Source: Earliella scabrosa (lineage: Eukaryota > Basidiomycota > Agaricomycetes > Polyporales > Polyporaceae). From it: DNA of 64,000 nt. Position 1 is the stretch's first letter; each line of letters starts with the position of its first letter. The position numbers and the translations under genes are program-made. Shown one piece after another: positions 4,579-8,033 of this stretch. The notes beneath the pieces are model-generated. The model was not told where the DNA came from, did not search any database, and was given only the letters and a program-made list of their open reading frames with translations. The stretch covers positions 2,418,001 through 2,482,000 of the forward strand of contig JABYQQ010000004.1 of NCBI GenBank assembly GCA_022605405.1, in the 5' to 3' direction.

Positions 4579-7500
4579 ATGTTCGCTCTCGCCAGGAGAC
4601 AGCTCGCTTCGACGCGCCGCGCCGTCCCAGTCTCAGTCGCTGCTCGCTCGCAGTCAGGCCGTAGCCGTTCAACGGCCACCGGACGCGTTGCGACCGCTGT
4701 AGACACCGCTGGGAGGCGGCACATCGCCTCCACCGCTGGTAGAAGAGACGATGCGGTCACAAGGCGCACGAATCAGGAGGGGGACACGGATGGGGACGGC
4801 GCGATGCCCGCAGAAGAGCTGAGCTCCGTTGGGGTGTACGAGCGGGAGCATGAGCATGCTGTGATTTCTGCGTTCGATCTCTTCAGCATTGGAGGTGCGT
4901 CCCCGCCTCTGTGTGCTAATCCGAGCCTCAGGATTGGATGCTGAGTGCGCCCTGGCGGGATTGATGCGCCCAGTCGGCCCGAGTTCGTCGCATACTGTCG
5001 GACCCATGCGCGCCGGCAAAATATTCATCGGCGACCTGGAAGCTCTTGGATTACTCGATAAGGTAATCTGACCTTTGTTGCGAGAGGCGTTGGCTTTCCT
5101 CACTGGTTCATGTGTCTAGGTCAAGGTAGTCAAGATCACATTGTGAGTCGTACTATCAAGGCGCAACGTCAGGGACCAGTCTGACATGCCGTTCCGGAAG
5201 GTACGGCTCTCTGGCCGCGACGGGTACGCAGTTGCCCAATGCACCACAAGTGGCAGGAGCTAACTAGCATGATCCCCTTTTGTAGGAAAAGGGTACGAGC
5301 ATGCTCCGCTCATGATTCAATACATACCTCTGATGGTCTCGCCCTCGCAGCCATCACACGCCACAAGCCATTCTGCTGGGCCTCGAAGGTGATTTTGGCT
5401 ACAGTCCCCGTACTAACGGCATTGACCATCACGGCAAACGACCCAGGATCTGACCCAGAAACTATTGACACCGGCACAATACCGTCCCGCTATGAAGCGA
5501 TTCTGGAGAACAAGACGCTCATGCTCGGGGGCCGCCATCGTATCGTGTACGACATGGACAGAGATATGGTGTGGCGGTGGGACCAGGTGCTGAAGACTCA
5601 CCCGAACGGCATGCGGTTCTCCGTCTTTGGAGAGAATGGGGAGCTACTCGCGACCAATGAATACTTCAGGTACGCCCCGGGTCGGCTGCTTGGATGAGCT
5701 TATTCGACGGATAACGTTATGTGTGTGGACTGATTCAATTTTCACTCCATGCACGCCATCTCGCGATCAGCGTGGGGGGCGGTTTCGTCGTGAACGAGAA
5801 AACCAAAGGTGCGGATGTCACGCTCGCACTGTCCGGCGGGGCGACGCTTATGCGATGGGAGCAGTCGATGAGAATCTGTTCTACAAGGGCGTGGACAAGA
5901 GCATCGTCCATGGCGCGCGGCTGCACCAACCCCACAGCACGGAGACCGCGCCCGGCGAGCCCGCACAGGCGTCGGACCCCATCCAGCCACCGTATCCATT
6001 CACCGTGCGTGAGGCTGGTTCTTGCGATGGGGACTCTTGAGCTGAATGATGGACTGGTCGGGGCAGTCGGGCGACAGCCTTCTTGCGCTGACGAAGAAGC
6101 ACAACGTACGTGACGGGAGTGCCCTTGCTGTTCTCCCCGTCCGCGTCGCCATGGAGACTGACCCCGCTCTCTCCGCCGCGGTCTAGATGACGATCGCCCA
6201 AATCGTGTACGACAACGAGCTTCATTTCGGGTATTCGCACGATGACATCCACGAGAAGGTGCCCCCTTTCATTCAATGCCCTCGCCTGCTTCTTCCCTCC
6301 CTCCGCACGCTTAACCGGCGCGCTCCTCTCCGGCCCTGATTCTGTCTCTCCGTTATACTATGCGCACTTGTCACGCGTCGCGATTCGTCTGCTAACGGCC
6401 GTGCTCTGTCGCGTTTCTGCAGCTGATGCGCATCTGGAGCGTGATGGACGACTGCATTCGGACAGGCGTGTCCTCGGCAGAGGAGAAGCTCCCGGGCAGG
6501 CTCGGTCTTCGTCGGCGCGCGCCCATCCTCTATCGCCGCCTCATGCGAGGGTGCGTGTGCTGTCACTCTCCCCGCCTTCGATCTGTACTCACAGCGAGCA
6601 CGCGAAACATCCTGCCTGCGTCCCCTTCTCAGCTTCTACCCCGGCCTGGCCACGCCCACCCTTCCCGCGATCAGTGCAGGCGCGATGTCCGCCGGCCACA
6701 TCCCCGCCCCGGACGGTTTTCTCGCGGGCGGGTTTTCCGCGGCTGGGGCTGACTCCGAGAACGGCGACGGGTACGTCCTAGGTAAGGACAGCAAGCTCGG
6801 CCCAGGGCGCAGGATATCTGCTTCCCGTCCCACCCGCGTGGTCGGCGTTCTGGATCACCCCGTCACGCCCATGCCTCCGGTAAGCTGTGCGGGGTTCCTG
6901 CGCCCGAGGGAACTAAAGACTAATTCATTTCCTGTGGTGGATAGCGGAAAACGATGATTCCGGCGATGGACTTCTTGTCCTGTTACGCTATCGCTGTAAA
7001 TGAGGTTAATGCGAGCGGCGGCCGCATCGTCACATCCCCCACAAATGGCGCCGCTGGAGTAATCCCGGCCGTGCTCAAGTACATTGTTGAGGTACGTCTC
7101 TCCCTCGGATAACCGCTCACATGCGACCGGGCTCATGGTGTCGTATAGTTTGTGAGCGATGATCCCGAGCGATCGGTGGTCACGTTTCTCCTCACTGCTG
7201 CGGTACGTTTCCGTCCCGGACGACGTAGAATCATGCCGGTTCCTCATCCCCGATGTGCCACAGGCAATCGGAATGCTCTTCAAGCGGGGAAGCACAATAT
7301 CGGCTGCTGAAGGCGGATGTCAGGCAGAAGTAGGCGGTATGGTCTGTTTCATGAACCCTGACGAATTTGATCTGGAACCATGTCTTCCAGTGGCGTGTTC
7401 GATGGCGAGCGCTGGCTTCGCCGCGTGCATGGGAGGCAGGTTTCTTTTCGCACAATTTATCTGTGACACGGGCTTATCCCTGTCCGACGACCGCAGCATC

Positions 7501-8033
7501 TCCGGAAACAATTTTGCAGGCGGCCGAAATTGGTATAGGTGAAGACGGCCCGTTGTCATTCGCATTTCTGCCGATTTGCTCACCGCTCCTGGGTGATCGT
7601 CGTGATCTCCTACAGAACACAATCTCGGGTTAACGTGCGACCCAATCGACGGGCTGGTCCAGGTGCCATGCATAGTATGTGCAACTACTCTCCCGACGGA
7701 CCGTTATGTCACTCACCTGACTGATATCGCGACTACATGGCGATAGGAGCGCAACAGTCTTGGAGGTCCGTAGCTGCGGCTCTTCGAAGGGTAGCAGGCT
7801 GACAATTTGGCTATAGCTGTCAAGGCGATTACGGCCGCCCAGCTGGCGATGGCGAGCCAGAATGTATACAGTGTCACGTTGGATGAAGCCATAGAAGCTA
7901 TGCGACTGACCGCTGCTGACATGAGCGTCAAGTACAAGGAGACTAGTCTATCGGTGAGTGCTTACCGCCGCACTCGCAGAGCTTAGGCTAACTATGTCGC
8001 CGTGTGCAGGGCCTTGCTGCAAGTATTCTTTGA
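4579..8033 (+). CDS. Iron-sulfur (bacterial-type) L-serine dehydratase, probably mitochondrial
   Basis: Predicted to deaminate L-serine to pyruvate and ammonia with a [4Fe-4S] cluster rather than PLP. Model of 22 exons, 660 residues: 4579..4894, 4974..5062, 5120..5142, 5201..5223, 5286..5292, 5351..5388, 5447..5669, 5771..5808, 5865..6004, 6067..6105, 6187..6258, 6423..6550, 6633..6879, 6945..7091, 7149..7202, 7264..7336, 7391..7435, 7497..7538, 7616..7674, 7747..7765, 7817..7953, 8010..8033. It shows GPSSSHTVGPM (residues 107-117), YGSLAATGKGHHT, YPF, TSPTNGAAGVIPAVL and three cluster cysteines, C547 (GGCQAEVG), C589 (LTCDP) and C600 (PCIERN). Their 42/11 spacing matches bacterial SdaA-type enzymes. 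The first 50 residues are Arg-rich without acids, like a mitochondrial presequence. Exon 5 is only 7 nt, and intron 7436-7496 appears to be GC-AG. Product confident; small exons inferred. Confidence 0.9.

Follow-up and report, generated by a model that had tools for sequence, protein, structure and literature searches.

The Locus and the Gene Model

We have tried here to settle two connected matters within a 64,000-nucleotide stretch of DNA from Earliella scabrosa, of the order Polyporales (assembly GCA_022605405.1, contig JABYQQ010000004.1, positions 2,418,001 to 2,482,000 of the forward strand; the whole stretch is called the window below): what is the gene at positions 4579 to 8113, and how did a fungus come to have it? 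Its product, we are confident, is the orthologue in fungi of the single-chain [4Fe-4S] L-serine dehydratase (SdaA/SdaB, the type 2 enzyme) and is most likely imported into mitochondria.

Reconstructed from the sequence, this iron–sulfur (Fe-S) L-serine dehydratase gene runs on the + strand from an ATG at 4579 to a TGA and encodes 668 residues in 23 exons, and its 22 introns measure 51 to 164 nucleotides, 20 of them GT-AG and two GC-AG. A preliminary description of the window had 22 exons ending at 8033; its start codon and open spliced frame (660 residues, ending GLAASIL) stand, but its 3′ end was wrong, because the last exon had been read through a GC-AG intron (GCT/GCAAGT donor at 8019, CACAG acceptor at 8074). 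Past that intron, positions 8075 to 8113 encode RTVKIPLTVPAC, for a predicted new C-terminus of TVPAC and stop. Aligned homologues end in VPAC (13 of 15) or VPAW (2 of 15), and, judged from sequence, this piece is likely the last exon.

Can exons of seven or nine nucleotides be believed? Exon 5 (7 nucleotides), which encodes most of the GKG before the putative catalytic histidine, is supported by its product, GKGHH, as found in 14 of 16 alignment rows; exon 22 has just 9. The Cerioporus protein is identical at 557 of 668 residues, and all exons align with it, the gaps being confined to the leader and a variable linker; the Fomes protein (561 of 668) has, besides these, a gap in exon 9 and a four-residue insertion near the C-terminus. 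The GenBank entry for the same E. scabrosa gene (P0001, 624 residues), already named “L-serine ammonia-lyase,” leads the homologues in the first protein search and is identical wherever exons are common to both models. It is without exons 8, 10 and 22, has exon 13 cut and exons 5 and 15 altered. It keeps the terminal cysteine and loses the catalytic loop and several exons, tiny ones included. Both the loop and the C-terminal cysteine are back in place in the 23-exon model.

The features follow; each rests on the splice model, with further evidence in brackets.

4579–8113, +: Fe-S L-serine dehydratase, coding part (exon-by-exon match to Cerioporus and Fomes; Pfam and TIGRFAM on the 660-residue model)
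4579–4894, +: exon 1, leader (about residues 1–92, likely a mitochondrial presequence) followed by the first part of the beta domain, to FDLFSIG (leader analysis)
4974–5062, +: exon 2, GPSSSHTVGPMRAG
5120–5142, +: exon 3
5201–5223, +: exon 4, YGSLAAT
5286–5292, +: exon 5, 7-nucleotide microexon, most of GKG before His154 (protein comparison)
5351–5388, +: exon 6, HHTPQAILLGLE, contains His154
5447–5669, +: exon 7
5771–5808, +: exon 8, SVGGGFVVNEKTK, absent from the deposited model (protein comparison)
5865–6004, +: exon 9
6067–6105, +: exon 10, absent from the deposited model (protein comparison)
6187–6258, +: exon 11
6423–6550, +: exon 12
6633–6879, +: exon 13, long variable linker, part of it missing from the deposited model (protein comparison)
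6945–7091, +: exon 14
7149–7202, +: exon 15, changed in the GenBank entry (protein comparison)
7264–7336, +: exon 16, putative cluster ligand C547 (GGCQAEVG)
7391–7435, +: exon 17
7436–7496, +: GC-AG intron (GAG/GCAGGT)
7497–7538, +: exon 18
7616–7674, +: exon 19, putative cluster ligands C589 (LTCDP) and C600 (VPCIE)
7747–7765, +: exon 20
7817–7953, +: exon 21
8010–8018, +: exon 22, 9 nucleotides, GLA; extended to a stop at 8033 in the preliminary description
8019–8074, +: GC-AG intron (GCT/GCAAGT) overlooked there
8075–8113, +: exon 23, RTVKIPLTVPAC and stop, C-terminal Cys668 (107 of the 120 homologues listed end in Cys)

A Probable Single-Chain Iron–Sulfur Enzyme

On the 660-residue model, one chain holds both Pfam domains, SDH_beta (residues 97–250, E 7e-60) and SDH_alpha (310–656, E 4.4e-82), and TIGR00720 sda_mono scores 564.3 bits against a cut-off of 345.1, so that the SdaA-type identity first proposed from the letters alone is borne out. 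The predicted fold of an orthologue is likewise that of a single-chain Fe-S L-serine dehydratase, and the three genome-wide matches to PF03313 (SDH_alpha) are all exons of this gene. Two other identities were rejected: the two-subunit Fe-S enzyme (TIGR00718/00719), since there is a single chain and the scores lie below the cut-offs (159.9 against 243.2 and 36.7 against 161.2 bits), and the pyridoxal phosphate (PLP)-type serine dehydratase, since Pfam finds no PALP domain in that model, where only SDH_alpha and SDH_beta match.

The three cysteines with 42/11 spacing noted at the outset are C547, C589 and C600, and their columns are invariant in 72 rows. H154 aligns with the histidine of the GKGH loop in the Legionella pneumophila enzyme (PDB 4RQO), and through a numbering offset we equate it with His61, which the accessible text of PMC12647591 proposes as the catalytic base.

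How might such a protein work? The three cysteines would hold a [4Fe-4S] cluster, the fourth iron of which would serve as Lewis acid for the serine hydroxyl while His154 removed the alpha proton, and the products would be pyruvate and ammonia. With no serine bound, the C-terminal Cys668 probably occupies the open iron and so would act as an intrinsic inhibitor, by analogy with Cys458 of Legionella.

Homologues in Fungi and Beyond

Homologues came from three protein searches and a scan for bacterial loci. The first search scored 8000 candidates, of which the best 120 were used; the second took a shorter query of two joined pieces, and the third a padded query designed to leave short bacterial proteins out and bring protists to light, its pad being less long than intended, each again with its best 120 matches. 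The bacterial loci are the best 80 of at least 589 stretches from a scan with two peptide patterns, and their sampling is therefore biased.

Fungal names stand on 102 of the best 120 matches of the first search (18 are unnamed), in genera that we take to be Agaricomycetes, the homologues having 70–91% identity. The second adds Ustilaginomycotina, Tremellomycetes, Pucciniomycotina, a Dothideomycete, Mucoromycota, Zoopagomycota and Chytridiomycota, if we have assigned the genera to their groups rightly, with bacteria lower in the list. Neither names nor simple sequence features marked any of the 120 padded-query matches listed as eukaryotic, and the names seen were bacterial. Full-text literature searches gave, among the titles listed, none devoted to the fungal enzyme and, in the text accessible to them, one fungal mention: PMC4859500 credits the ascomycete Drechmeria coniospora with a protein of this kind, its domains being among those present in at most four of the other fungi compared. 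Part of another source, PMC10703272, lists L-serine dehydratase among the Fe-S proteins of Preaxostyla flagellates, and other eukaryotes may therefore have the gene.

This is an ordinary, established gene of mushroom-forming fungi, present also in several other fungal groups. To single it out as a bacterial-type enzyme in a fungus was misleading, since many fungi have it and many entries bear the name L-serine ammonia-lyase or serine dehydratase. Its apparent strangeness comes down to two things: the bacterial nature of the relatives found outside fungi, and the division of the gene into 23 small exons.

The two halves are joined by a linker whose median length is 98.5 residues among first-search matches (measured in 112 of 120), 73 among early fungi (measured in 19 of 20) and 30 among bacterial loci (measured in 68 of 80); by the same measure that of E. 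scabrosa has 108. P0277, a metagenomic homologue of 533 residues, has a fungus-like long linker yet stands among bacteria in the 66-row and 58-row trees described below. Eleven loci on IMG/VR viral contigs (L106–L116) encode dehydratase relatives, four of these contigs exceeding 50 kb; they may represent flanking host DNA, cargo of prophages or auxiliary genes.

The Two Ends of the Protein

The 23-exon model ends in C668. Among the matches listed, a terminal cysteine closes 107 of 120 proteins in the first search, 118 of 120 in the padded-query search and 78 of 80 bacterial loci, as well as 19 of 20 early-fungus rows (20 rows picked by hand, six of them unlabelled) and all 11 Ustilago- and Dothideo-like rows. 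The KETS motif is followed by 11 residues in 19 of 20 early-fungus rows, 82 of 120 padded-query matches and 72 of 80 bacterial loci, by 17 in 105 of 120 first-search matches, and by 17–20 in the 11 Ustilago- and Dothideo-like rows. Long tails occur in bacteria too, for 25 of the 120 padded-query matches listed have 18.

At the other end, seven arginines fall within residues 1–30 and the first acidic residue is number 42, so the arginine-rich leader seen at the outset is real. A basic, acid-poor composition of this kind marks the leader in 98 of 118 homologues, against 179 of 2400 internal segments, and composition and motif enrichment would fit a cleavable basic presequence. A mitochondrial location is likely on these features of the sequence.

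Several observations weigh against an imported, self-inhibiting enzyme of the Legionella kind. Thirteen of the 120 first-search homologues listed end without cysteine: four end in tryptophan at its position, three have tryptophan there and then run on, and six have unrelated sequence. The tail has 17 residues after KETS where most bacteria and early fungi have 11, and its predicted local distance difference test (pLDDT) score in the structure model is below 50; with six extra residues and so low a score, its entry into the active site is only putative. The sense given to the R-3 motif of the leader is general background. Finally, only three other fungal rows in the leader comparison have a complete N-terminus, those of Basidiobolus, Phycomyces and a Dothideomycete. 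All three begin near the domain with no such leader, and location may therefore differ by lineage.

The homologues with tryptophan at the cysteine position are P0051, P0055, P0103 and P0031, which end there, and P0023, P0084 and P0087, which continue. These cases could reflect an unspliced or unannotated last intron that splits the cysteine codon.

Where the Gene Came From

The trees were built from hand-picked rows, some of them fragments, out of 360 proteins and the 80 bacterial loci: a careful tree of 66 rows, a quick one of 111 and one of 58 with a distant outgroup, the Legionella enzyme of 4RQO being left out. All 23 fungal rows of the 66-row tree fall into a single clade (100/100), with Dikarya inside it (100/100); the gene is therefore old in fungi, and the suggestion that it was long since domesticated holds good.

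That clade also disposes of the notion that this fungus, or species close to it, recently took the gene over from bacteria by horizontal transfer, a notion that draws on the bacterial nature of the named matches and organism-titled loci outside fungi, among those listed. The single clade refutes it, and 22 introns and the spread of homologues over the 102 named fungi and the further fungal groups also speak against it; we count it as very improbable. Still less probable is that the gene is a pseudogene, or that bacterial DNA contaminates the assembly; here one could cite relatives that are bacterial and nothing else, but the eukaryotic introns lie in an open frame, a fungal-type Rcd1/CNOT9 gene adjoins, and there is the identity to the Cerioporus protein already given. 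All three ideas were rejected.

What, then, are the nearest bacteria? The fungal clade adjoins six Legionellales-like rows in the 66-row tree (81/55) and in the outgroup tree (81/44), and the quick tree, with two of the six present, places fungi beside Legionellales-like rows with a Shimodaira–Hasegawa-like approximate likelihood ratio (SH-aLRT) of 95. Two of the six, L010 and P0292 Rickettsiella, are named accordingly, Rickettsiella being a genus that we take to belong to the Legionellales. Weakly, then, the trees point to a Legionellales-like group. A single transfer from a Legionellales-related bacterium to the ancestor of fungi or to an older eukaryote would fit this placement in three trees, and holding fungi with four actinobacterial rows costs 55 log units and is rejected (P value of the approximately unbiased test [p-AU] 0.003). 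Against it stand the weak support, the four bacterial rows whose names do not indicate Legionellales, and a root, taken from the two-subunit enzymes of Synergistota in the 58-row tree, that is weakly supported and hangs on saturated branches (5 + 5 changes per column); the same tree is also compatible with exchange in the opposite direction. We would call such a transfer possible, at something short of an even chance.

An ancient eukaryotic gene, from the mitochondrial ancestor for example, that survived in fungi and certain protists while other lineages lost it, has a claim of its own. Holding fungi with five alphaproteobacterial rows and Bacterium HR40 (groups named after the tree had been seen) costs 5.7 log units and is not rejected (p-AU 0.374), which counts against the Legionellales source, and the Preaxostyla listing in the accessible part of PMC10703272 also favours antiquity. 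In the best tree, however, the alphaproteobacterial rows are placed elsewhere, and, as a weak point, no non-fungal eukaryote was recognised among the best 120 matches of each search. This origin, too, we would put at something short of an even chance. The phylogeny proposed at the outset gives one fungal clade beside Legionellales-like rows, weakly placed, and on it either ancient inheritance or a very old transfer may be right.

Branching order within fungi is not firm, since chytrids form an early branch in the 66-row tree and fall among zygomycete rows (94/86) in the outgroup tree. Nor is the odd position of Dothideomycete rows beside Malassezia (100/98, 66-row tree) established, because holding the basidiomycete rows together without them is not rejected (p-AU 0.087).

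One might string all this into a single story: that, near the base of fungi, an oxygen-labile Fe-S serine deaminase was acquired once from a Legionellales-like bacterium living inside cells, was kept vertically (chytrids, zygomycetes, basidiomycetes), became mitochondrial only in Basidiomycota through a gained presequence, and in Dikarya took on a longer self-inhibitory tail with the terminal cysteine retained. As a whole, we think this unlikely. Whatever its source, the fungal clade lends itself clearly to tracing how fungi gained an Fe-S serine deaminase, and the leader and tail differences among lineages are natural variants for studying tail-in-mouth inhibition outside bacteria.

The Same Genome and the Neighbouring Genes

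A PLP-type serine dehydratase lies in the same genome (C8, about 19.4–19.9 kb; a piece matches 1pwe, an L-serine dehydratase, E 1.2e-16), where PALP has 15 matches; the fungus therefore has both kinds. Within the window, an ISD11/LYRM4 gene of two exons (37191–37534, +) matches PDB chains of LYR motif-containing protein 4 (E about 4e-15). It is a real gene, but at about 29 kb from the dehydratase gene it was rejected as a positional partner, and its nearness had rightly been called coincidental. The preliminary description was, in sum, a careful and correct reading of an ordinary gene apart from one wrong last exon.

Downstream, 8633–9920 (+) encodes the CCR4-NOT subunit Rcd1/CNOT9 (Pfam Rcd1, E 3.2e-117). 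Upstream and divergent, 2633–4147 (−) is an open frame of 504 residues with no Pfam match, a cysteine-rich N-terminal part and an FFNH motif, presumably reminiscent of SET proteins. A tandem array at 62316–62582 has a 42/84-bp unit (about 6.4 copies, 81% matches), and a 6-bp GGAAGG array lies at 60353–60441.

Comparison with Known Enzymes

The PLP-type L-serine dehydratase (SDS/CHA1) carries out the same reaction as the Fe-S enzyme with a different fold and cofactor. CyuA, an L-cysteine desulfidase, shows 11–12% identity in alignments and acts, according to the accessible text of PMC12647591, on another substrate. Among the closest known systems is the type 2, single-chain SdaA/SdaB enzyme of L. 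pneumophila (4RQO), in which the C-terminal Cys458 is both the fourth ligand of the [4Fe-4S] cluster and an intrinsic inhibitor. Compared with it, the E. scabrosa protein has some 92–98 extra N-terminal residues, a linker of 108 residues against the bacterial-locus median of 30, a tail six residues longer than in most bacterial loci and a gene divided into 23 exons.
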